A DNA stretch of 51,058 nucleotides from a virus, in the IMG/VR virus record IMGVR_UViG_3300022592_000007, positions 1-51,058 of that record. One strand, written 5' to 3'. Below the pieces are notes generated by a model. That model saw only the letters and a program-made list of their open reading frames with translations, was not told where the DNA came from and searched no databases. Shown here piece by piece: positions 2,556 through 51,058 of the stretch. The position numbers and the translations under genes are program-made. Positions within the stretch are counted from its first letter, which is position 1, and every line of letters begins with the position of its first letter.

Positions 2556-2705
2556 TTACGCTTCCATGATGGTTATATCCAGCTTCCAGCCTTTACCGAG
2601 ATAAAAGTACAGGCTGAGGATATGCCGCCAGTAGTGCTTCCAGGTGTGATAAAAGCCGATGGATTGACGCGGGACTTTGTACAGGTGTATTTCAGGCTTA
2701 ATCAT
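2556..2705 (-). CDS. Small basic, aromatic-rich hypothetical protein
   Basis: A 49-residue protein, MIKPEIHLYKVPRQSIGFYH at its start. Its ATG overlaps the stop of the upstream gene as ATGA (2702-2705) and its stop sits just before the ribosome site of the methyltransferase gene. It is rich in Lys, His, Trp and Tyr (HTWKHYWRHILSLYFYLGKGW), which suggests a compact helix with an aromatic face. Function unknown. Confidence 0.6.
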   Translation of the reverse strand: MIKPEIHLYKVPRQSIGFYHTWKHYWRHILSLYFYLGKGWKLDITIMEA

Positions 2706-2950
2706 TTGATCGCCTTTCCTTCCTCGATACCCCGGATGAAAGCGTGCATTTTCTCATACAGTTCGCGCTTTGTGCAGAAGCCGCTGCCAAGGGGCTGCGA
2801 TACTCCGCCGCTCTCGTTGCAAACGCGCTGAAGGTTGACGCCGCTGTATGCCCAGTCCAGGCAATAATGCCCCACGTGGGAGCGGAATTTCCCAGTATCC
2901 TGATCCGAATATTCCGCCGGGCTGTTGGTGATTTTGTTGATGTAATCCAC
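2702..2950 (-). CDS. Hypothetical protein, start uncertain (GTG)
   Basis: The conserved-looking part runs from GTG 2950 (VDYINKITNSPAEY) for 82 residues and ends with FCTKRELYEKMHAFIRGIEE. The same frame is open 13 codons further upstream to a TAG at 2990-2992 and would add SITEKQLKSL, which reads like genuine protein (compare the common phage helix SEKQ..L). No good start codon lies in that extension, so either GTG 2950 is the start or the N-terminal part has been lost (see the region 2951-3101). Two Cys and a GGVSQPLGSG loop are visible. Family not recognised. Confidence 0.6.
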   Translation of the reverse strand: MDYINKITNSPAEYSDQDTGKFRSHVGHYCLDWAYSGVNLQRVCNESGGVSQPLGSGFCTKRELYEKMHAFIRGIEEGKAIK

Positions 2951-3101
2951 CAGTGACTTGAGTTGTTTTTCCGTGATACTGCGTTGTCTCTATTGCTCCG
3001 CGCTGTGGGAAGGATGGAAAGAGCGGTATATCTTGACGGACAAACCGCGCGGGCCGTTCATGGTCTGGGGTCAAAAGTTTGTGCATATCTTGACGGGTCA
3101 T
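2951..3101 (-). pseudogene. Possible disrupted 5' part of the 2702-2950 gene
   Basis: ATG 3101 overlaps the stop of the 43-residue gene as ATGA and starts MTRQDMHKLLTPDHE, an apparently well-placed start, but its frame then runs into Pro/Gln/Arg-rich sequence that looks like a shadow of the 2702-2950 gene. That gene is in the +1 frame, which here reads GLSVKIYRSFHPSHSAEQ, TAG at 2992-2990, then RQRSITEKQLKSLVDYI. One inserted base plus one nonsense change would explain the picture. Sequencing error, true decay or unusual decoding cannot be told apart. TAG is used as an ordinary stop elsewhere in the window. Confidence 0.35.
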
Positions 3102-3229
3102 TTTTTCACCTTTGGGAATGTTTTATTAATCATCTTGTCAATCTCTGCCAGATTGCGCATGATCTGAGTTTGTGATCTGCGAATCTCTTGTGTGCGCATG
3201 AATTCGACTAGCCTCTCTTTGTTTGTCAT
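3098..3229 (-). CDS. Small helical hypothetical protein
   Basis: A 43-residue, highly charged protein (MTNKERLVEFMRTQEIRRSQ at the start, ending TFPKVKK). The start is strongly supported by GGAGGTGCTATT directly upstream, the best ribosome site in this arm. The stop overlaps ATG 3101. It is probably a single amphipathic helix. Function unknown. Confidence 0.6.
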   Translation of the reverse strand: MTNKERLVEFMRTQEIRRSQTQIMRNLAEIDKMINKTFPKVKK

Positions 3230-3251
3230 AATAGCACCTCCTCAAGTGCTG

Positions 3252-3485
3252 TTAATGTACTCTGGTTACATCCGGGCTGTAAGAATCCCGTTTGAAGTCA
3301 AGTACATAGGTCCGGTTGACAATCATCTTATAGCCGCGGGATGGTTTAATCTCTTGCGCCACTACTTTATATTCCCTACACCACTTTCCCGCTTGATATG
3401 CCATGCCATTAATCGAAGAGGCATAGGGCGGCTCTTCTGACGTTCTCCCGTGATACCCTGCCATGAAACAATCAAATGTATTCAT
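3252..3485 (-). CDS. Hypothetical protein
   Basis: The frame is open further upstream, but ATG 3485 is chosen because GAGGATAAAGAT precedes it and the upstream extension covers the hairpin-rich spacer. The product is 77 residues: MNTFDCFMAGYHGRTSEEPP, then YQAGKWCREYK and a beta-rich end with MIVNRTYVLDF. The pattern Y..G...... GK..R with a C-terminal strand pair is seen in small phage proteins of unknown role. No catalytic motif. Confidence 0.65.
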   Translation of the reverse strand: MNTFDCFMAGYHGRTSEEPPYASSINGMAYQAGKWCREYKVVAQEIKPSRGYKMIVNRTYVLDFKRDSYSPDVTRVH

Positions 3486-3527
3486 TATCTTTATCCTCTT
3501 GTCCTGGTGAATTGCTAGGGCATTAAC

Positions 3528-3552
3528 CGCCAGTAAAATCATCTTACTGGCG
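3528..3552 (-). promoter_or_regulatory. Junction hairpin between two left-arm genes
   Basis: CGCCAGTAA at 3528-3536 and TTACTGGCG at 3544-3552 form a perfect 9-bp stem with a 7-base loop. A second weaker stem (CGGAT and ATCCG) lies beside it at about 3553-3573. On the minus strand it follows the stop of the gene at 3592 and precedes the ribosome site of the gene at 3485. It has no clear U-run, so it may be a processing or stability element rather than a terminator. Confidence 0.5.
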
Positions 3553-3591
3553 ACGGATGCCCGGACAATATCCGTAGTTATAGGCCGTCAT

Positions 3592-3789
3592 TTACTGTTC
3601 GTCGTATTCTGCTTTATGGCTTAACTTACCTGGTTTGTGTGTTGCGTTGTATTGCTTGCATATCCGCCGCGCTTCTTCTTCTGTGCGGAGATTGCGGTAT
3701 AGCGTATACTTCCGCCCCGCTCCCGGCTCACGTCCTCCGGGCCATGCTGAGTTAGACTTCCACCAATTGCGAGTAAAGACAGTGTACAT
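3592..3789 (-). CDS. Conserved small phage protein (WWK...TEEEAR type)
   Basis: A 65-residue protein starting MYTVFTRNWWKSN, with GGREPGAGRKYTLYR, then LRTEEEARRICKQYNATHKP and KAEYDE. This arrangement (FTR.WWK, GR, TEEEAR..C..YN..H.PG.LS.KAEYE) matches a small family I have often seen in phage genomes, always of unknown function. The start is fixed by GGAGG seven bases upstream. Immediately upstream is a paired-hairpin leader (3803-3861). Confidence 0.75.
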   Translation of the reverse strand: MYTVFTRNWWKSNSAWPGGREPGAGRKYTLYRNLRTEEEARRICKQYNATHKPGKLSHKAEYDEQ

Positions 3790-3802
3790 TTTAGCCTCCG
3801 AT

Positions 3803-3861
3803 TAGAGCACATTACCGAATTGTAGTGTGCTCTATAAGAGGGGGGAGGTCCACGCCTCCCC
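3803..3861 (-). promoter_or_regulatory. Paired-hairpin leader with CTACAATTCGGTA loop (copy 1)
   Basis: Two stems stand one after the other. On the minus strand the first met is GGGGAGG/CCTCCCC (3842-3848 with 3855-3861). The second is TAGAGCACA with TGTGCTCTA (3803-3811 with 3826-3834), whose loop region reads CACTACAATTCGGTA on the minus strand. The same 15 bases recur in the leader at 4700-4714. The ribosome site and start of the 65-residue gene follow at once. The GC stem could end the upstream transcript; the second could be a 5' stabiliser or a protein-binding translational operator (inference). Confidence 0.65.
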
Positions 3862-3939
3862 ATTCTACAGATTAGATTTTAGCGGGCTTTGTGTATCCCG
3901 CGCATATCGCGCCTCCTATCAGAATTCAGAATATGAACG

Positions 3940-3962
3940 TTATTGATAATCGTTATCAATAA
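3940..3962. promoter_or_regulatory. Perfect 10-3-10 palindrome resembling a Fur box
   Basis: TTATTGATAA, TCG, TTATCAATAA: a perfect inverted repeat centred on C3951. The inner 15 bases TGATAATCGTTATCA differ at one position from the 7-1-7 Fur consensus TGATAATnATTATCA. It lies four bases beyond the stop of the minus-strand gene 3966-4118 and about 150 bases upstream of the next minus-strand start (3789), so it could be an operator for that gene or an AT-rich 3' hairpin. A link to the phage ferritin gene is tempting but unproven. Confidence 0.5.
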
Positions 3963-3965
3963 GCC

Positions 3966-4118
3966 TTAGTCCTCGTTTAGCCGCTGCTTAAGTTCTCGTT
4001 GTAGCTTGCGGTACATAGCCGCGGCTTTATCCGCATTAACCTGATCTCCGGCTAGTCTGTACTCGCGTTCCAGCTTGCGGTATATCTTGGCTGTGGTTAC
4101 TATCTGGTGTGTGGTCAT
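3966..4118 (-). CDS. Small helical hypothetical protein
   Basis: ATG 4118 is preferred over a longer upstream start because it overlaps the stop of the upstream gene (ATGA, 4115-4118) and has GAGGTAACCCA before it. The product has 50 residues, MTTHQIVTTAKIYRKLEREY at its start and two matching helices containing AKIYRKLERE and AAMYRKLQRE, a short internal repeat suggesting a helical hairpin or coiled coil. Function unknown. Confidence 0.65.
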   Translation of the reverse strand: MTTHQIVTTAKIYRKLEREYRLAGDQVNADKAAAMYRKLQRELKQRLNED

Positions 4119-4303
4119 TGGGTTACCTCGATTAATACCCCGTCCTTGATCCATGATACAACCTCGTAATAACCGAAAGTTGTAACGGCCCCGTCTGATA
4201 GACGGACCTTGACTTCGGCAGTCAAGTCAACCTGGCTTATAACCTCGCCCCATTTATTGCCATTCGCCAACTTGTATACTTTACCGACTAGGTTTTTGTT
4301 CAT
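4115..4303 (-). CDS. Small beta-rich hypothetical protein
   Basis: A 62-residue protein starting MNKNLVGKVYKLANGNKWGE, with alternating hydrophobic strands (EVKVRLSDGAVTTFGYYEVV) that look like a small SH3-like or OB-like barrel. The start follows GAGGATACCA. It is coupled to the next gene by ATGA and preceded by the multi-hairpin spacer 4326-4458. I do not recognise a named family. Confidence 0.65.
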   Translation of the reverse strand: MNKNLVGKVYKLANGNKWGEVISQVDLTAEVKVRLSDGAVTTFGYYEVVSWIKDGVLIEVTQ

Positions 4304-4325
4304 TGGTATCCTCTCATTCTACTTG

Positions 4326-4458
4326 CCCCACAACCGCGTTATGGGGTCTGATAGACTGGTAAGCGGCTTATGGGAGGTATTGAGCGGCTACATGGTAGAC
4401 TTATGCTCTACTCGCGTTGCGCTTGCCAGTCTATCAGAGAGGCGGTATCAGCCGCCTC
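4326..4458 (-). promoter_or_regulatory. Multi-hairpin spacer with a 19-base inverted repeat
   Basis: Three nested or serial stems fill the 162-base gap. On the minus strand, in order: GAGGCGG/CCGCCTC (4439-4445 with 4452-4458), a GC stem just after the upstream stop; then a 19-base inverted repeat (4347-4365 with 4420-4438) with one mismatch that becomes G-U in RNA, enclosing a 54-base loop with its own GTAGA/TCTAC hairpin; then a 9-bp stem with 3-base loop (4326-4334 with 4338-4346). The ribosome site for the gene at 4303 follows. No coding frame is evident. It could be a structured leader or a processed small RNA. Confidence 0.6.
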
Positions 4459-4465
4459 CGGGATG

Positions 4466-4672
4466 CTATGATTGTAATTCCTTGACGGTTTCCGCTGCAC
4501 TTAGAAGCGCTTCCGATAATGTATGAAAGCCTTCTAGGTGGCGAAGTGTATACCATGCCCCTGTCTTTATCGTGGTGTCAATAGCATACCCGTTATTAAT
4601 GTGGGATTGCTTGACAATAATCTTTCGTTTATACTTACCACCAAGGGATCTAAACTCAATCGTTGCTTCCAT
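4466..4672 (-). CDS. Small hypothetical protein
   Basis: A longer start exists five codons upstream, but GGAGGCAGTAAAG stands correctly before ATG 4672 (MEATIEFRSLGGKYKRKIIV). The 68-residue product has a beta-strand N half, a WYTLRHLEGFHTLSEALLSA helix and ends in AAETVKELQS, which suggests an alpha/beta mini-domain. Leader hairpins at 4693-4750 and trailer hairpins at 4439-4458 isolate it. Function unknown. Confidence 0.65.
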   Translation of the reverse strand: MEATIEFRSLGGKYKRKIIVKQSHINNGYAIDTTIKTGAWYTLRHLEGFHTLSEALLSAAETVKELQS

Positions 4673-4692
4673 CTTTACTGCCTCCATAACAC

Positions 4693-4750
4693 ACAGTACT
4701 ACCGAATTGTAGTGCTGTCTGGTTTGGAGGGGAGGCCGTCAAGCCTCCCC
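4693..4750 (-). promoter_or_regulatory. Paired-hairpin leader with CTACAATTCGGTA loop (copy 2)
   Basis: Same design as 3803-3861. The GC stem is GGGGAGGC/GCCTCCCC (4729-4736 with 4743-4750). The second stem is ACAGTACTA with TAGTGCTGT (4693-4701 with 4710-4718), with CACTACAATTCGGTA on the minus strand at 4714-4700. The gene it precedes is unrelated to the gene behind copy 1, so the shared part is a portable leader and not part of a duplicated gene. Confidence 0.65.
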
Positions 4751-4755
4751 TTACT

Positions 4756-4938
4756 TTACAGTACCTTGATGCTTGTCACTTGACAATACCCTCGCTCTTT
4801 GTCAGTACCCCTGTCAAGCGTGATATGTAATCCAATTGGATGGGCGGATGTAGCCGCTCTAATGGACGACGCCATTGTCTTGCATGTTTCCTGGATAACG
4901 TCGTGATGCCATTTGGTAGTAATCTCCAGCTTTATCAT
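4756..4938 (-). CDS. Small hypothetical protein
   Basis: ATG 4938 is chosen for GAGAGGTACAACA directly upstream; a start eight codons earlier has no ribosome site. The 60-residue product begins MIKLEITTKWHHDVIQETCK, has a mid helix with TMASSIRAATSAHP and ends in two strands (GLHITLDRG, YCQVTSIKVL). It looks like a small alpha/beta protein. Family not recognised. Confidence 0.65.
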   Translation of the reverse strand: MIKLEITTKWHHDVIQETCKTMASSIRAATSAHPIGLHITLDRGTDKERGYCQVTSIKVL

Positions 4939-4965
4939 TGTTGTACCTCTCTCTACTCTCATCAG

Positions 4966-5015
4966 GTATGGCCACTACCATACTACCCAGAGGGTGATCT
5001 TCCGTCACTCTGGGT
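4966..5015 (-). promoter_or_regulatory. Paired-hairpin leader (copy 3, different sequence)
   Basis: ACCCAGAG (4985-4992) pairs with CTCTGGGT (5008-5015), extended by TGA/TCA past a two-base bulge. Next to it GTATGG (4966-4971) pairs with CCATAC (4978-4983) with a 6-base loop. The order (strong stem, small stem, ribosome site, start) repeats that of the leaders at 3803-3861 and 4693-4750, although the bases differ. Confidence 0.55.
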
Positions 5016-5022
5016 TTCGAGT

Positions 5023-5214
5023 TCAATAGCTGTTCATGCTAGACGTGTACCCATCCAAGTATCGGACCTCCCTAGGGCGCTCATCACACCCATGCCCTAC
5101 CCTGCCTATACACGTACTATAGCCGTACACAGCCCCGCCAACCGGGAGTAATACGTTATCCAGTTGGTCGTGTCGTTGCCTAGCGCCTGGACGGTTGCCC
5201 CGGTGGTTGGTCAT
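5023..5214 (-). CDS. Possible small hypothetical protein
   Basis: A 63-codon frame from ATG 5214, the only long open frame here. TAGGAGG touches the ATG directly, so ribosome spacing is poor. The product is Arg/Gly rich (MTNHRGNRPGARQRHDQLDN) and ends VRYLDGYTSSMNSY. Position fits the first gene of the leftward operon and hairpins follow its stop, but composition is not convincing; it may be leader sequence without coding function. Confidence 0.35.
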   Translation of the reverse strand: MTNHRGNRPGARQRHDQLDNVLLPVGGAVYGYSTCIGRVGHGCDERPREVRYLDGYTSSMNSY

Positions 5215-5334
5215 CCTCCTACCCAGCCTCCCCGGTTTCTCCGTTGCCCGTTGCCCCCCTTGCCCGCTTCGGTGTAAGAAGCTCTTTATTTATTGCCTCC
5301 TACCCTTTAACGATACGACTTTTTGACCGGGAGC

Positions 5335-5392
5335 ACATAGTCACATTTGACTGGATTATTACGACATACGTCACATTCAATATTCCGAATAT
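5335..5392. repeat. Direct repeat pair and adjacent AT palindrome
   Basis: ACATAGTCACATT (5335-5347) and ACATACGTCACATT (5364-5377) are a near-perfect direct repeat 29 bases apart, close to three helical turns. Directly after lies ATATTC, C, GAATAT (5380-5392). Repeats on one helix face in an AT-rich divergent region are typical of repressor or initiator binding sites; which protein binds is unknown. Confidence 0.45.
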
Positions 5393-5466
5393 GAATTATG
5401 AATACCCGGTAAGTAGAGCGTATAACCCAGCGATCCATCATGGGCGCATATCATAGGACCTGGCTA

Positions 5467-5498
5467 CATCCATCCACCATCCACCATCCAGCATCCAG
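5467..5498. repeat. Heptamer tandem array CATCCAC/CATCCAG
   Basis: Four head-to-tail heptamers: CATCCAC, CATCCAC, CATCCAG, CATCCAG (5471-5498), preceded by a partial CATC (5467-5470). It lies in the non-coding divergent region, so a role as a small iteron array is possible. It may also be replication slippage. Confidence 0.5.
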
Positions 5499-5616
5499 CA
5501 CACACAACCCAAGCCAGAATTGGGCAACGCTGGCGGCGGATGAAACACAGCACCGTGCTCAGAAATTACGGTTCTCGAATTCCACAAAATCCCCCTGCTA
5601 TGCGAACAAATTGGGG

Positions 5617-5622
5617 TATAAT
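5617..5622 (+). promoter_or_regulatory. -10 box (GTATAAT) for the rightward leader and operon
   Basis: TATAAT preceded by GGGG. A start seven to eight bases further would begin the transcript at 5629-5630, exactly at the 5' strand of the closing helix of the leader. The -35 side (CTGCTA at 16-base spacing) is weak, 3 of 6 to consensus. Confidence 0.5.
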
Positions 5623-5629
5623 AGAGAAC

Positions 5630-5765
5630 GAGACGGGCGGCGTGGAAGGACACGCGATAGGTGTAGAAGGTCTCAAAACAAGACGACAATTAGACCTCAG
5701 TCGTCCACCTATTAGGAATCTACCGGCAAAGATTAATAGCGGGTACTCAAGCCCCGCCCCGTCTC
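5630..5765 (+). ncRNA. Structured 136-nt 5' leader with crossing helices
   Basis: Closing helix: GAGACGGG plus CGG (5630-5640) with CCGCCCCGTCTC (5754-5765). Inside: hairpin GCGTG/CACGC (5640-5655); ATAGGTG/CACCTAT (5657-5663 with 5706-5712); within this AGGTCT (5668-5673) pairs AGACCT (5692-5697) and GACGAC (5682-5687) pairs GTCGTC (5700-5705), two helices that cross; and TACC-GC/GC-GGTA (5721-5727 with 5739-5745). The connecting loop of two bases is tight for a standing pseudoknot, so the two inner helices may be alternatives, as in a switch. The ribosome site (AAAGGAGAAGG) follows at 5772. I cannot match it to a known riboswitch. Confidence 0.6.
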
Positions 5766-5784
5766 AATAACAAAGGAGAAGGAT

Positions 5785-5973
5785 ATGACCAAATGGAATC
5801 CGATAAGTCGAAGTCCTAAAGAGAATGGGGAGTATCTTGTCTGTTATGCTTCTAAAAAAGACAGGAGTAGGAAGTATGTATCCGTAAGTACATGGGTGGG
5901 GATATGGGAGAGGAATGAATATCCTATGATAGAGATAAGTCATTGGGCAAAGTTGCCTAAAGTGCCGAAATGA
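5785..5973 (+). CDS. DUF551-like small protein
   Basis: A 62-residue protein, MTKWNPISRSPKENGEYLVC at the start and HWAKLPKVPK at the end. The pattern W.PIS..P.ENGEYLV....... ITHW..LP.PP is that of the DUF551 family, common in phages and of unknown function. AAAGGAGAAGGAT sets the start. It is the first gene behind the folded leader and is coupled to the HNH gene by an ATGA overlap (5970-5973). Confidence 0.8.
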   Translation: MTKWNPISRSPKENGEYLVCYASKKDRSRKYVSVSTWVGIWERNEYPMIEISHWAKLPKVPK

Positions 5974-6326
5974 TAAGATACAAAAGATATGATCCATTGG
6001 CGGCAATTATTACTCTCTTGATAATGGACTGGGTATTTAAGCCAAGGATAGATAGGCACGATGAATATCAAGATTACTTGCAGAGCGACCACTGGAAGAG
6101 GGTTAGAAACGTAGTGGGTCAAGATGCTAATTGGCTATGTGCAGTAAAAGGATGTGGTAAGCATGGGAGACACTTGAATGCCCATCACCTACATTATCGG
6201 AGCCTTGGAGAAGAGAGGGAGGGAGATGTGGTATATGTCTGCCCATATCATCATAAACTTATTCACAAAAACCACGCGTTTAATAGACGGGGCGGCGGAG
6301 TAATTCCAGCCTTTAGTTACAGGTAA
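5970..6326 (+). CDS. HNH endonuclease-like protein
   Basis: A 118-residue protein. A hydrophobic N-terminal stretch (residues 9 to 24) is followed by YLQSDHWKRVRN, then a zinc-HNH module: Cys57 and Cys62, AHHLHY at 71 to 76, a Gly/Glu-rich turn (SLGEEREGD), Cys91, and HH/H at 94, 95 and 99. This is the layout of small phage HNH nucleases. Such proteins can act in DNA nicking, packaging (together with terminase) or homing; location upstream of terminase permits a packaging role, but this is inference. Start overlaps the previous stop. Confidence 0.75.
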   Translation: MIRYKRYDPLAAIITLLIMDWVFKPRIDRHDEYQDYLQSDHWKRVRNVVGQDANWLCAVKGCGKHGRHLNAHHLHYRSLGEEREGDVVYVCPYHHKLIHKNHAFNRRGGGVIPAFSYR

Positions 6327-8007: not shown

Positions 8008-9544
8008 TAAGGATAAGAGACAGTTACTTGCCCTACTTACAGAGATGAGGGCAAGGAATCTCGATATACCTAAAGTAGACAAAGCCAACATAGCCTGGTC
8101 AGATAAATGGAATATTGATGAGAATGGCTTCTTTCGCAGAAATGGAGCGGGAAAGCCCTATGACCCGGCGGGGGAACAGTTAAGTTTCATAAATGCACCC
8201 GGAGTTTTTGTAGCCATGCAAGGGGGTAGAGGATCTGGAAAAACTTCTGCCGGCGCACAGAAAGCGCTTCGTAAGATTCGTGAAGGTAGAACAGGGATAG
8301 TCGTCAATCCAGACCTGGAGAACTTCAAGACTTCTACCTGGCCAGAACTCCGAAGCTGGATACCCTGGCAGATGGTAATTCCAAAACACAGAGTCAGAAG
8401 GTCAGAGTCTTGGGATGTAACCAGACCATTTTCAATCGTTTTCATAAATGGAGCCGTTCTTTATTGTCGTGGACTTCGTGACCCCGAGTCTGGCCGTGGA
8501 CATAACGTAAACTGGTTATGGTATGACGAAGCCCGTAGAGATAGAACTGGACTGGCCTGGAAGAACGCTATCGCGGGTGTACGCGTTGGGTCCAATACCC
8601 AACGGTTCTTAACCACTACTCCGGCCGGAAGAGACTCTTGGATAGCCGCTTTATTCGACCGGAAAGAGATTCCTCAAGAAGTCTATGACCTCCTGAAAGA
8701 CATCCCCGATATGCAGGGGCGCGAGTTAATCGAGTCTTTTCACGTTTCCCTGGAAGAGAACCGCAAGAACCTTGACCCCATCTTTTACGCTACACTGGTA
8801 TCATCCTTCCCGTCTGGTTATTTGAGACAGCGCGAGATCGAGGGAATCGCAGCCAACGAAGAAGGTTCTCTTGGTGATAGGACATGGTTTACCCACAATC
8901 CAACTACTGGAGTATCGCACATCTTAGAAAAGGCTCCCGAATGGAGAGGGCGGATTCGATATTATGACCTCGCCGCTTCCGAGAAGAAAGTTGGTACTGA
9001 CCCCGACGAAACAATAGGTGGTTTGGTTTCCTATGACGATAAGAAGGAAAACTTTTGCATCGAAGATCAAACCGGAGGACATTGGTTGTGGGATCAAATT
9101 CTTGAAAACATCAGAAATACCGCCATGGTAGATGGACAACAAGTACCCATCTATATCGAGCAGGAACCCGCCTCGGGCGGTAAGAACCAAGTGGCCGCTA
9201 TTGCCAATTTCTTAAAGCCATTTGGGTTTACCGTGAGAGCGCACGACCCCAAGAAGGATGGAGATAGAGTAGAAGCGGCTAACCACTGGTTCGCGGAGGC
9301 GGCGCAAGGACATTGGTGGGTGGTTCGTGGAAAATGGACGGATAATTTTTTTGGCGAATTGGACACCTTCCCCGCTAAGGATACCCATGACGACCGGATA
9401 ACCGCGACCACCGGGGCCCGTTTGTCTATTGCACCTATTCGTAAATGGAGCAGTATTCGGTTTGCTCATTTAGGCCAGAAAAATCCAGAACAAAAAAAAG
9501 AGGAAGAAGCAAAGGTTGGAGCATGGGGGAAATCTAAGGATTAA
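7970..9544 (+). CDS. terL: Terminase large subunit
   Basis: A 524-residue packaging motor. The ATPase half has the P-loop GGRGSGKT (residues 85 to 92), Walker B WLWYDEA (182 to 188) and coupling motif TTTP (215 to 218). The nuclease half has Asp333 (YYDLA), the acidic pair IEQE (396 to 399) and HDDR (473 to 476), the RNase H-like metal site. Length is normal. The first ATG at 7970 overlaps the small subunit gene by 38 bases and lacks a good ribosome site, so it is probably translated by coupling; a later Met at residue 26 is possible. Its stop overlaps the stop of the convergent HNH gene. Confidence 0.95.
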   Translation: MQANKTIRTDLSDKDKRQLLALLTEMRARNLDIPKVDKANIAWSDKWNIDENGFFRRNGAGKPYDPAGEQLSFINAPGVFVAMQGGRGSGKTSAGAQKALRKIREGRTGIVVNPDLENFKTSTWPELRSWIPWQMVIPKHRVRRSESWDVTRPFSIVFINGAVLYCRGLRDPESGRGHNVNWLWYDEARRDRTGLAWKNAIAGVRVGSNTQRFLTTTPAGRDSWIAALFDRKEIPQEVYDLLKDIPDMQGRELIESFHVSLEENRKNLDPIFYATLVSSFPSGYLRQREIEGIAANEEGSLGDRTWFTHNPTTGVSHILEKAPEWRGRIRYYDLAASEKKVGTDPDETIGGLVSYDDKKENFCIEDQTGGHWLWDQILENIRNTAMVDGQQVPIYIEQEPASGGKNQVAAIANFLKPFGFTVRAHDPKKDGDRVEAANHWFAEAAQGHWWVVRGKWTDNFFGELDTFPAKDTHDDRITATTGARLSIAPIRKWSSIRFAHLGQKNPEQKKEEEAKVGAWGKSKD

Positions 9545-10011
9545 CTTTTTGTATCTATTAAATACTTTATATGCTTTTCCAACAACTCCGTATCGTCTTT
9601 TACCATTCCCAAAAGTTTGTTACAGTTGTAACATAAAAGACCGCGCACTTTTCCGGTTTTGTGGTCGTGGTCAACAAAAAAATTCTTTTGTTTCATAAAA
9701 TATGGGTATGCTGTTTTTGCTCCGCATATTGCACATATTCCATTTTGATCTCTTAACATGATTTCATAAAACTCTAGGGATATTCCATAATTATAATTTA
9801 ATACATAGTCTCTACGCTTTCTTTCAAAGTCCGGGTCACTCTTTTTCTTCTGCCAAATATACTTATTTCTTGCTGAATTTTGTCCTCGAATGCAAGTTTT
9901 ACACCGAGGACATTTTCCATCTTTGTTTCTACTGTTTTTGTGGAACTCGGAAAATGGTTTTATTTCTCCACACTTACAACACTTTTTTTCTGGAACGATC
10001 TTATTTGTCAT
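9541..10011 (-). CDS. Endonuclease VII-like HNH endonuclease
   Basis: A 156-residue protein convergent to terL, with overlapping stop codons (TTAA). N-terminal zinc ribbon CCKCGEIKPFSEF with CPRCKTC, then a basic linker, then CAICGA, VDHDHKTGKVRGLLC and CNKLLG, the signature of recombination endonuclease VII-type HNH enzymes. Free-standing copies on the opposite strand between virion genes are usually homing elements; a Holliday-junction role in packaging is the alternative. GGAGATAGT sets the start. Its base composition (A/T rich, Lys rich) differs from the neighbouring terminase gene, which fits later insertion. Confidence 0.85.
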   Translation of the reverse strand: MTNKIVPEKKCCKCGEIKPFSEFHKNSRNKDGKCPRCKTCIRGQNSARNKYIWQKKKSDPDFERKRRDYVLNYNYGISLEFYEIMLRDQNGICAICGAKTAYPYFMKQKNFFVDHDHKTGKVRGLLCYNCNKLLGMVKDDTELLEKHIKYLIDTKS

Positions 10012-10024
10012 ACTATCTCCAAAT

Positions 10025-10080
10025 AAAAAACCCCGAAAGTTGCGGTCTGTTGTTCAGGCAGATTCCGATAACTTCCGGGG
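10025..10080 (-). terminator. Terminator-like stem upstream of the HNH gene (attenuator)
   Basis: On the minus strand CCCCGGAAGTT (10080-10070) pairs with AACTTTCGGGG (10041-10031), 11 bp including one G-U, followed by TTTTTT. It stands just 14 bases before the HNH start, so readthrough transcripts from the right would be stopped before the gene. The plus-strand version has an A-C mismatch and no U-run. Confidence 0.5.
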
Positions 10081-10122
10081 AATTAATATATTGTATCACA
10101 AACCGCATCGTACTGCCTGAAC
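10041..10122. repeat. Interleaved inverted repeats
   Basis: TGCGGT (10041-10046) pairs with ACCGCA (10102-10107), and GTTCAGGCAG (10052-10061) pairs perfectly with CTGCCTGAAC (10113-10122). The two pairs cross. Read as DNA, the second 21-base block is the reverse complement of the first with its two parts swapped. It could be a binding site, an RNA pseudoknot or a recombination scar near the homing-type gene. Confidence 0.45.
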
Positions 10123-11289: not shown

Positions 11290-13317
11290 ATGGCTGCCAA
11301 AACACGAACTAAAGCAAAACAACTTAATCCCACCGATCTTTTGGTACAAACCACCCTTCCATCTCAGCGTTCTGCCCCCGGTGGAAATGTTTTGAATTTC
11401 CTTTATCGCGTTGCCCCCGCGTGGAATTCGCCCAATTGGTGGGAGGCTCAGATATGGCGTAATTTCGTTATGTCTGTCCCCATCGCTACTGTCTGTAGGA
11501 ATACCGCCATCTCTCAACTCACCGCGCTGGATTGGAAGATTGTTGCAAGAGACTCCAATAAGACCGATGAGCTGAAAGCCAAAATAAAATACAACACGCG
11601 ATTAATTGACAATGAGGGGATGTATGACGGAATTGATTTCACGGGTAGACTCGAATGGCTGGGTAAAGACTTGCTCGATCTGCCCTTTGGGATGGCCGCA
11701 GAATTGGGACACGAGAATGATGATCCTAATGGGAAAGTAGTCTGGATACGTTGCCTAGACGCGGGTACTCTAATGCCCTCGCTAAACGCTGATTTTCCTG
11801 TTATTCAGCGCGTTCCCAACATGATTACTGAACCCATTGCGTTTCCAGCATATTCAATAGCACGTCAATATATGAGTCCTCGTTCAGATATTTGGCGTGA
11901 GGGTTGGGGTATGGCTCCCCCCGAACAGATTTACCTAGCCTTTGAATTGATGAAGCGTGGTGATAAGTATTACGCTGAACTACTTTTGAATACCCCTCAG
12001 GTTGGTATCCTCGACCTCGGAGATACTACCAAGGAAACCGCACAGGAGTGGATGAAAGAGGCGCAGGACTTATTTACTGGTACTGACCCGATGAAGATTC
12101 CCGTCCTCTACGAACACACAACCAAGGTGGAGTGGATTCCATTCCAGATGAATCCGAATGAATTGATGTTCGACCGAATCACCGCGCGCTATGCCAACCT
12201 AATCTGTGCTGGGTATGGAATGAGTCCTTCAGACATCGGGATGGGTGGTTCTTCCAACGGCGGGGAAACTCTCTCTGGAACCATCCGGGATGAGCGTAAG
12301 ACCAAGAAGAACATTCTCTCGGTTATGAAAAAGAAGTTCAAATCATTCTACGACCACATTCTTCCCGAAGAACTTGAGTTTACCTGGATCGACTTTGACT
12401 CCGACCAAAACGTTGCACAGGGACGCGCAAGATTGGCAAATGGACAGGCAGACGAAATCCTGATTCGCAATCACGTCTTTACTCCACAGGAAATGCGCGC
12501 ACAGGCCCTTGTGGATGGGCTTGTTACCGTGTCTGTTCCCGAGACTTTAGATGACAAGAGTATCGAATGGCCCCAGTCTGGGAACACTACTCGCCCCGGA
12601 CTTATCGGAGAAAAGGTATCCGCCGATAACGGTGGACGCGGTGAAGTCAGTTCTGTCCAGGCTTCGTTGGCCGATAGTGGAATTATTGACCTAAAAAAAC
12701 AGGCCGACAAATCAGTAAAGCAAGCCTATTCCCCAATCCATGACTTTATCACAACAATAAAGAACATGAAGCCAGAAGAAGTCGAGGCATGGAAAAAACA
12801 CATTGCCGATGCTCTATGGTGGCGCGACCCAGAAGCCCGAATGATTGAGGACGTTGAAAAGAGACGCAGAACTATTCAGGGTTCGCTAAAGCGCAACGGG
12901 CTTGGCGAAGTACGATTCAACTCGGAAGATGCGCCGAAAGTCGAGCAGGCTCTTCGGGATAAGGTCTATCTAAAAATGTCTGAGTCGGACGACGCGTATG
13001 AAAATGGGTACGATGAAATCGAAGCCGAACAGAAAATCCATTCAGTAGATATACCGAATTGCATGGAAAAAGCCTCCACTGAAGCCACCGAGATAGCGCG
13101 TTCCATCATGGCGACCACAATATTCTCGGATTTACTTGATGAACTCACTATTGACCCTACGGTTGAAAAAAGTGATAATAAAGCTACAATTGTTGCTTCT
13201 GTGGTAAATAAGTTTGTTGAAGCCTATCCGCAGTTGATGACCGCCGCAGAAACAGCAGGTCAGCAAATCTTAGAGAAGATACTTGATAAGGAGATTGAAA
13301 ATGTCAAAGATTTATAA
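11290..13317 (+). CDS. Portal protein
   Basis: A 675-residue protein placed after terminase. It shows the phage portal pattern: N-terminal WWEAQIWRNFVMSVPIATVC, a wing region with PEQIYLAFELMKRGDKYYAE, the stem region with DRITARYANLICAGYGMSPS, and GGETLSGTIRDERKTKKNI. Residues 1 to 480 are portal; the last 190 residues are an extra helical domain (GEVSSVQASLADSGIIDLKK, then charged helices) of the kind sometimes fused to portals. Portals form the 12-mer DNA channel at one capsid vertex. The ATG is not preceded by a ribosome site (see the promoter at 11277). Confidence 0.85.
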   Translation: MAAKTRTKAKQLNPTDLLVQTTLPSQRSAPGGNVLNFLYRVAPAWNSPNWWEAQIWRNFVMSVPIATVCRNTAISQLTALDWKIVARDSNKTDELKAKIKYNTRLIDNEGMYDGIDFTGRLEWLGKDLLDLPFGMAAELGHENDDPNGKVVWIRCLDAGTLMPSLNADFPVIQRVPNMITEPIAFPAYSIARQYMSPRSDIWREGWGMAPPEQIYLAFELMKRGDKYYAELLLNTPQVGILDLGDTTKETAQEWMKEAQDLFTGTDPMKIPVLYEHTTKVEWIPFQMNPNELMFDRITARYANLICAGYGMSPSDIGMGGSSNGGETLSGTIRDERKTKKNILSVMKKKFKSFYDHILPEELEFTWIDFDSDQNVAQGRARLANGQADEILIRNHVFTPQEMRAQALVDGLVTVSVPETLDDKSIEWPQSGNTTRPGLIGEKVSADNGGRGEVSSVQASLADSGIIDLKKQADKSVKQAYSPIHDFITTIKNMKPEEVEAWKKHIADALWWRDPEARMIEDVEKRRRTIQGSLKRNGLGEVRFNSEDAPKVEQALRDKVYLKMSESDDAYENGYDEIEAEQKIHSVDIPNCMEKASTEATEIARSIMATTIFSDLLDELTIDPTVEKSDNKATIVASVVNKFVEAYPQLMTAAETAGQQILEKILDKEIENVKDL

Positions 13318-50586: not shown

Positions 50587-50619
50587 ACATATTTGGCAAG
50601 ACAATCAAATAGGATTTCA

Positions 50620-50650
50620 CAGAGGCGGTTACGTTTTGTAACCGCCTCTG
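50620..50650 (+). terminator. Strong hairpin closing the lysis cassette
   Basis: CAGAGGCGGTTAC (50620-50632), GTTTT, GTAACCGCCTCTG (50638-50650): perfect 13-bp stem with 5-base loop. A U-run is lacking, so it may need a factor or act mainly as a barrier to mRNA decay. Confidence 0.7.
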
Positions 50651-50666
50651 CATGAATGGAGGTTTT

Positions 50667-51058
50667 ATGAAACGAAAAATAGGTTTTGTTCTTGCGGATA
50701 CGCACGGAGGAAATTCGTTCGGTCTTCTTTCTCCCGGAACTTTTGTGAAAATGGAAAAACCCGACGGGGAACAGGTAGATTATGAACTTCCATTAAATCC
50801 CGTACAGGTCTATCTCAATGGAATATTTGAATGGCTTTTGGAGGTGGCAAAGGAATACGCCCAGGGAGATGAAATACTATTTATCCACAATGGCGATTTA
50901 ACCCAAGGTGGGGTACATGGTTCTTTAATATCCCCATCCGAATCAGTCATACTCACATATCTATTCCCAAATTTATCATCCCAACTTTCATCAGGAGTAA
51001 ATTCATTATCCTTCTTCATCAACCATACAACCAACTTTATACATCCAACCAAAACCAT
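50667..51058 (+). CDS. Calcineurin-like metallophosphoesterase, 5' part
   Basis: Open from ATG 50667 (GGAGGTTTT before it) to the window end, 130 codons. MKRKIGFVLADTHGGNSFGL holds the first metal motif (DTH), and about 85 residues on FIHNGDLTQGG holds the GD(x)N-like second motif. After GG (about 50925) the sequence turns into Ser/Leu/Thr-rich residues that look like a shadow of a minus-strand frame, so the real C part is probably missing or lies elsewhere. It would hydrolyse phosphoesters; substrate unknown. Confidence 0.7.
   Translation, partial: MKRKIGFVLADTHGGNSFGLLSPGTFVKMEKPDGEQVDYELPLNPVQVYLNGIFEWLLEVAKEYAQGDEILFIHNGDLTQGGVHGSLISPSESVILTYLFPNLSSQLSSGVNSLSFFINHTTNFIHPTKT
50925..51058 (-). 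CDS. Possible fragment of a minus-strand gene at the contig end
   Basis: On the minus strand from the window edge the frame reads MVLVGCIKLVVWLMKKDNEF, then TPDESWDDKFGNRYVSMTDS and DGDIKEP, which has better protein character than the plus-strand reading of the same bases, and then continues without a stop through the phosphoesterase gene. This suggests that the last 130 bases belong to another piece of sequence joined in the wrong orientation, or a real end of two overlapping genes. Confidence 0.3.

Follow-up and report, generated by a model that had tools for sequence, protein, structure and literature searches.

Candidate RNA leaders between small left-arm genes of an environmental phage

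What are the strong hairpins that stand between small genes in the left arm of this phage, and would they act as RNA or as DNA? The window, i.e. the whole stretch of DNA analyzed (51,058 nt of IMG/VR record IMGVR_UViG_3300022592_000007), comes from an environmental virus; it encodes a rightward terminase and a portal-like protein, the latter assigned by a match below Pfam's cut-off, and has a leftward, minus-strand arm of small genes. All leader features are located on the minus strand, the same strand as the small genes, at five junctions within 3482-5015 (leaders A to E). Pfam returned no known family for the six short genes tested within 3250-4940, nor did PHROGs for five of these six.

The reading that we prefer, with a probability of about 0.57, is that these elements are intercistronic RNA leaders that act in cis to set ribosome access to, and/or processing of, the next small gene. 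The leftward genes would be transcribed as one RNA, in which a strong hairpin of one to three stems separates the stop codon of one gene from the ribosome site of the next. This hairpin would likely set the translation of the next gene through ribosome access and/or mark a site of transcript cutting and protection, by which each small gene would become its own unit.

Architecture and fold strength of the leaders

The earlier note on this DNA described the order stem, second stem, ribosome site and start codon at three junctions, and this layout is present on the minus strand in leaders A, B and C, the last being a weak case. Leader A (4750-4681, ATG at 4672) has a first stem at 4729-4750 (GGGGAGGC/GCCTCCCC, from sequence and fold), a second stem at 4693-4718 and the Shine-Dalgarno (SD) sequence GGAGG at 4681-4685, and precedes gene A (4466-4672, 68 aa). 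Leader B (3861-3795, ATG at 3789) is composed of a first stem GGGGAGG/CCTCCCC at 3842-3861 (sequence and fold), a second stem at 3803-3834 and the SD sequence GGAGG at 3795-3799, followed by a gene of 65 aa (3592-3789) without Pfam or PHROG match. The second stems of A and B, delimited by folding, box search and RNAalifold, hold the 15-base box CACTACAATTCGGTA at 4700-4714 and 3813-3827, respectively. In leader C (5015-4946 including the ribosome site, ATG at 4938), the two stems span 5015-4985 and 4983-4966 (4966-5015 together), and its gene (4756-4938, 60 aa) has no Pfam or PHROG match either.

The two junctions that had been listed as variants of the same paired arrangement do carry stems before ribosome sites, but not as a pair. 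Leader D (3511-3569, ATG at 3485) is a single long interrupted hairpin before a gene of 77 aa (3252-3485, no PHROG match). Leader E (4326-4459, or 4459-4310 with the region to the ribosome site, ATG at 4303) has three stems (4459-4438, 4438-4347 and 4346-4326) and an unpaired CAAGTAGA at 4318-4325, before a gene of 62 aa (4115-4303, no Pfam or PHROG match). Counted on the sequence, 3-14 nt separate the stem end from the SD site in the five leaders of the window.

Four of the five window leaders fold clearly beyond shuffled sequences, and leader C is weak by both measures applied. Against 200 dinucleotide shuffles, folding z-scores are -4.57 (A), -5.55 (B), -2.31 (C), -3.40 (D) and -5.73 (E, computed over 150 b), and for the last 150 nt of the entire gap (60 shuffles) they are -4.0 (A), -3.9 (E), -3.2 (B), -2.6 (D) and -1.9 (C). 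The counterparts of E and D in L003, the relative introduced below, score -6.38 and -5.68, and six of the seven leaders from window and relative are at or below -3.4. When 5098 windows of 80 nt were scanned on both strands, the B junction had the best z among the 197 windows at or below -25 kcal/mol, for which alone z was calculated (15 shuffles).

Phages often have strongly folded gaps, and the window is not enriched over controls. We compared gaps of at least 40 nt, with z calculated over the last 110 nt wherever the fold lies, and hence not specifically at the ribosome site. A z-score of -3 or lower was obtained for 4/27 gaps in the window, 8/24 in the L003 contig, 3/24 in TM4, 6/29 in Wc4 and 5/19 in T7, whose gaps also contain promoters and terminators; at -2 or lower, the window has 8/27 gaps versus 11/19 (T7), 11/24 (TM4) and 14/29 (Wc4). 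The control covered TM4 up to 50,000 of its 52,797 bases and the minus-strand genes of Wc4 up to 38,384 of 92,039, nested or overlapping CDS of T7 and Wc4 being excluded, and genes of the window and L003 were called with a simple purpose-made gene caller. The four window gaps at -3 or lower are those of A and B and those that precede the genes with starts at 5214 and 28081, leader E being lost to the 110-nt cut.

Other strong hairpins of the L003 contig are located just before the ribosome site of the genes at 6126, 15432 and 14906, or contain the ribosome site, at 12397 (replication-initiation-like), 35869 (HNH endonuclease) and 36909 (DUF5659). The hairpin of the replication-initiation-like gene (12361-12480, locus L023, minus strand) has more than 20 pairs spanning the ribosome site. 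Near the right end of the window (~50619-50669, plus strand), a perfect 13-bp hairpin (CAGAGGCGGTTAC/GTAACCGCCTCTG) stands shortly 5' of GGAGG and an ATG; the reading frame tried after this ATG had stops, and what follows is a candidate gene only.

The 15-base box is exact in A and B, occurs nowhere else in the window and covers the loop of the second stem together with the flanking portion of either arm. By itself, a repeated 15-mer is weak evidence in 51 kb, as 11 are seen in the window versus a mean of 1.2 in 30 Markov simulations. Of 300 simulations of the 5.8 kb left arm, 2% had any repeated 15-mer. Both copies occupy the same place in the same fold.

Leader types, exchange and paired base changes

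Among the sequences searched, the leader-bearing region was found in only two distinct phages, namely the window's own phage (L002, identical across the 9.5 kb compared) and one diverged relative (L003), whose terminase is 94% identical and in which the left arm is also present. The terminase alignment comprised nine loci among viral contigs, and the alignments of gene A and of gene 4118-3966 comprised two each (L002 and L003). Left-arm genes had no match in the other terminase loci, but since each of those contigs is short or stops at the region or ahead of it, the absent matches are no evidence of loss. In genome contigs, 95 stretches fitted a pattern and none encoded a relative. BLASTn with 3200-5800 matched no phage record in a database in which all terminase relatives are below 60% identity, and Rfam had no match in the window (best E 0.83 within 3400-5800, far under the gathering score of that family).

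The leaders were classified into three types: A and B (type 1), E and the L003 leader before the gene A homologue, at 6624-6544 (type 2), and D and its L003 homologue at 5610-5554 (type 3). Both type 2 leaders share the first stem GGAGGC/GCCTCT, the second-stem base TCTGAT/ATCAGA, the third stem and, by leader comparison, the unpaired CAAGTAGA.

Gene A, 62% identical to its L003 homologue (6518-6312), follows a type 1 leader in the window and a type 2 leader in L003; the type 2 leader precedes gene 4303-4115 in the window and the gene A homologue in L003, and these two proteins are unrelated. The proteins behind A and B have no similarity, which agrees with the earlier statement that the box occurs twice before unrelated genes. 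Leader type appears not to be tied to the gene behind it, and the leaders look exchangeable. Of the portable module proposed in the earlier note, the separability of leader and gene stands (type 2, L003), whereas its termination function is not supported, as no terminator-like site was detected on the minus strand at these junctions. Gene A is not kept without stems in L003, where it has a leader of the other type. No comparable leader precedes gene 4118-3966 in either phage; in the window this gene and its neighbour overlap, and in L003 the gap before it has a z of 1.4. A 12-mer (E 0.003) shared by the start of leader B's gene and L003 hints weakly that L003 may once have had this gene and then lost it.

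One copy fits less well. Behind the type 3 hairpin of L003 there is only an ORF of six codons, and the hairpin itself falls within an open frame of 106 codons (5772-5452); it is perhaps not a leader and may have another role, and its position within an open frame lowers our confidence in the RNA-leader reading. The loop differs in length by 2 nt between L003 and the window, which would argue against conserved coding at this copy.

With registers fixed, 13 base pairs changed on both sides with pairing kept, i.e. three in type 1, six in type 2 and four in type 3. Double-compensated pairs amount to 4/18 in stem 2 (P 0.0008) and 2/9 in stem 3 (P 0.004) of type 2, 4/26 in type 3 (P 0.0004) and 3/10 in the second stem of type 1 (P 0.005), where each P value comes from our own null, one for each of the four varying helices, and is optimistic because the registers were picked by eye from the same sequences that were compared. 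RNAalifold on A and B gave 5/18 double-compensated pairs. The first stems of types 1 and 2 have no changes and are hence uninformative on pairing, and as only two phages have the region, the covariation rests on pairwise comparisons. Because the paired changes keep complementarity, base pairing in the leaders looks to be under selection.

It had been proposed to look for the box with its stems, and for covariation, in related phages: in the sources searched, the type 1 form was found in L002 only, and covariation was found across all three types. In viral contigs, the type 1 pattern matched the L002 contig only. The type 2 patterns fitted 21 and 9 stretches, with stems on the L002 and L003 contigs only (partly by eye on folds). 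The type 3 pattern fitted four stretches, of which L008 and L010 are chance matches without a hairpin (by eye). Covariance models for types 1 and 3 detected no further copies in nine sources, and the type 1 model no new copy in three whole records; their remaining matches were known sites read on the other strand, or were weak (E 0.08-0.1, with one overlapping the type 2 leader of L003).

Noncanonical pairs in the compared stems, read on the mRNA strand, comprise 10 G.U versus 5 A.C, an excess that suggests a slight lean toward RNA. The second stems of A and B contain C.A mismatches, which are G.U on the opposite strand, and at A and B the plus strand has a lower folding energy than the minus strand.

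Action of the leaders as RNA or DNA

If the leaders act as RNA, they would do so on translation initiation or on processing. In predicted folds, the SD is unpaired with a probability of 0.16 in A and 0.02 in B and is largely unpaired in C, D and E. Shuffled leaders reach the same or a stronger closing of the ribosome site in a fraction of 0.24 (A), 0.067 (B), 0.42 (C), 0.67 (D), 0.89 (E) and 0.10 (L003 leader). On these models, A and B may sequester the ribosome site, with a closing not beyond chance. An anti-Shine-Dalgarno switch, in which the 3' arm of the first stem pairs with the ribosome site (A, B, C, E and L003, by eye), is a reading that we do not adopt, its closing not exceeding that of shuffles.

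The hairpins may instead be RNase III-type processing sites as in T7, where cutting of the hairpin protects the 3' end of the upstream RNA and gives the downstream RNA a short 5' leader. An RNase III substrate is a double-stranded stem of roughly two helical turns. Leader D and its L003 homologue (22 consensus pairs with internal loops between) and stem 2 of type 2 (an unbroken run of 18 pairs in the L003 leader) are of substrate length, and the strongly folded gaps of T7 (5/19) presumably include RNase III sites. The helices of A, B and C are short and single, with ~5-9 pairs, so that, in predicted folds, a stem of substrate form is found in D, E and their L003 homologues but not in A, B and C. 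We regard RNase III cutting as a tentative account of the set, possible but unlikely.

A cassette system would go further than the cis-acting leaders that we prefer: interchangeable structured leaders would be fitted to small genes, and one phage or host factor would read their fixed cores (CACTACAATTCGGTA, CAAGTAGA and GTAAGATGATT) in trans, switching unrelated genes as a set through their translation or processing. This we consider improbable. Somewhat more doubtful still are DNA-level junctions, i.e. palindromes that serve as recombination joints or mobile palindromic elements shuffling the small genes, with the RNA fold being secondary. The presence of one leader type before different genes in two relatives is what such joints would yield, but the arms diverge yet stay complementary outside the conserved spots, which a sequence-matched joint does not need, and neither the type 1 and 3 covariance models (nine sources) nor the patterns in viral contigs found further copies. 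DNA operators for a dimeric protein would account for palindromes 5' of a subset of genes and for the core CACTACAATTCGGTA fixed between A and B; we hold them to be very improbable, as an operator keeps its letters rather than its pairing and here the arms vary between copies by paired changes. Intrinsic terminators ending each small transcript are hardly credible: strong GC stems do follow stop codons, but none is terminator-like on the minus strand at these junctions, and 8 kb on both strands hold 6 terminator-like sites versus 8.1 in shuffles, in a scan that needs a T-run and that unusual terminators could escape.

Known systems and neighboring elements

The cis-acting leaders that we propose would, in our best reading, work like hairpins of T4 and T7 and be laid out like the SAS and ESAS elements of Cluster K phages, i.e. 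be of a kind already known, and the statement in the earlier note that no system of this form has been described was too strong. T7 intergenic hairpins are RNase III sites; the likeness lies in strongly folded gaps before genes, cutting being a possibility for the leaders here, and we know of no sequence relation between the two.

The sections of PMC3203893 on Cluster K phages describe SAS as repeated elements just 5' of start codons, including the ribosome site, before non-structural genes with large gaps. They have a single 13-bp consensus in 11-19 copies per genome, are common to genes of different families, and about half are extended by inverted repeats (ESAS); in these sections, Pope et al. 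find little support for RNA pairing of the inverted repeats and think a DNA operator likelier (PMC3203893). The layout before start codons is similar as far as those sections describe it, but the leaders here comprise three types with one or two copies each, and RNA pairing is supported here. The SAS sequence GGGATAGGAGCCC near the start codon was not found at the leaders (at up to two mismatches, one plus-strand and no minus-strand site in the window), and in place of 17-bp inverted repeats with a genome-wide consensus, only short cores are common within a leader type.

In T4-type phages, the passages of PMC3014915 and PMC2988022 on hairpins at ribosome sites (genes e, soc, 49, I-TevI and mobE) report that the ribosome site is closed and that a late promoter is placed such that late transcripts are without the 5' part. 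These stable hairpins at phage translation starts are functional precedents, but C, D and E leave the site mostly unpaired, and the SD is mostly paired in A and B without exceeding shuffled leaders. The hairpin of the L003 HNH endonuclease (35869) matches the homing-endonuclease pattern of T4 as given in those passages (PMC2988022, PMC3014915). The closest single precedent by analogy would be seg43(25), where a very stable predicted hairpin stands directly before the ribosome site without covering it, its effect being left undetermined in that part of the source (PMC2988022).

A full-text literature search, in which subscription journals are mostly outside coverage, had no paper on this leader set among the matches listed, judged by title and start of abstract, and the passages of PMC4283147 and PMC2864571 containing the search terms hold nothing on it. 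The interest of the leaders lies in the combination of modularity with covariation. If the RNA-leader reading is true, phages of this group would control accessory genes by RNA parts exchanged independently of genes, and an ESAS-like layout would act by RNA pairing rather than DNA binding, a reason to re-examine unexplained SAS and ESAS sites.

Several other elements were observed nearby. The box TTCAYATTCNGAATNYTGA is exact twice in each phage (window 3919-3937 and 5377-5395, L003 6080-6098 and 6909-6927, all on the minus strand), lying between genes of the leftward arm and in the divergent region, and looks like an operator or promoter element. A perfect 10-bp palindrome at 3940-3962 (TTATTGATAA/TTATCAATAA) has one mismatch to the Fur box consensus, TGATAATNATTATCA; the resemblance is weak, as a Fur-box-like match arose in 27/100 shuffles. 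On the minus strand at 2700-3101, two reading frames that overlap (2754-3101 and 2702-2950) may together form a single gene interrupted by a frame change. At the head of the rightward transcript there seems to be a leader with GGCGTGGA near its start in the window (5633-5770, plus strand, no Rfam match), L005 (~265-415) and L020 (~1080-1260), as judged by eye. Finally, an endonuclease VII-like gene (Pfam) is located at 9541-10100 on the minus strand, with a terminator-like hairpin and T-run before its start (by eye).
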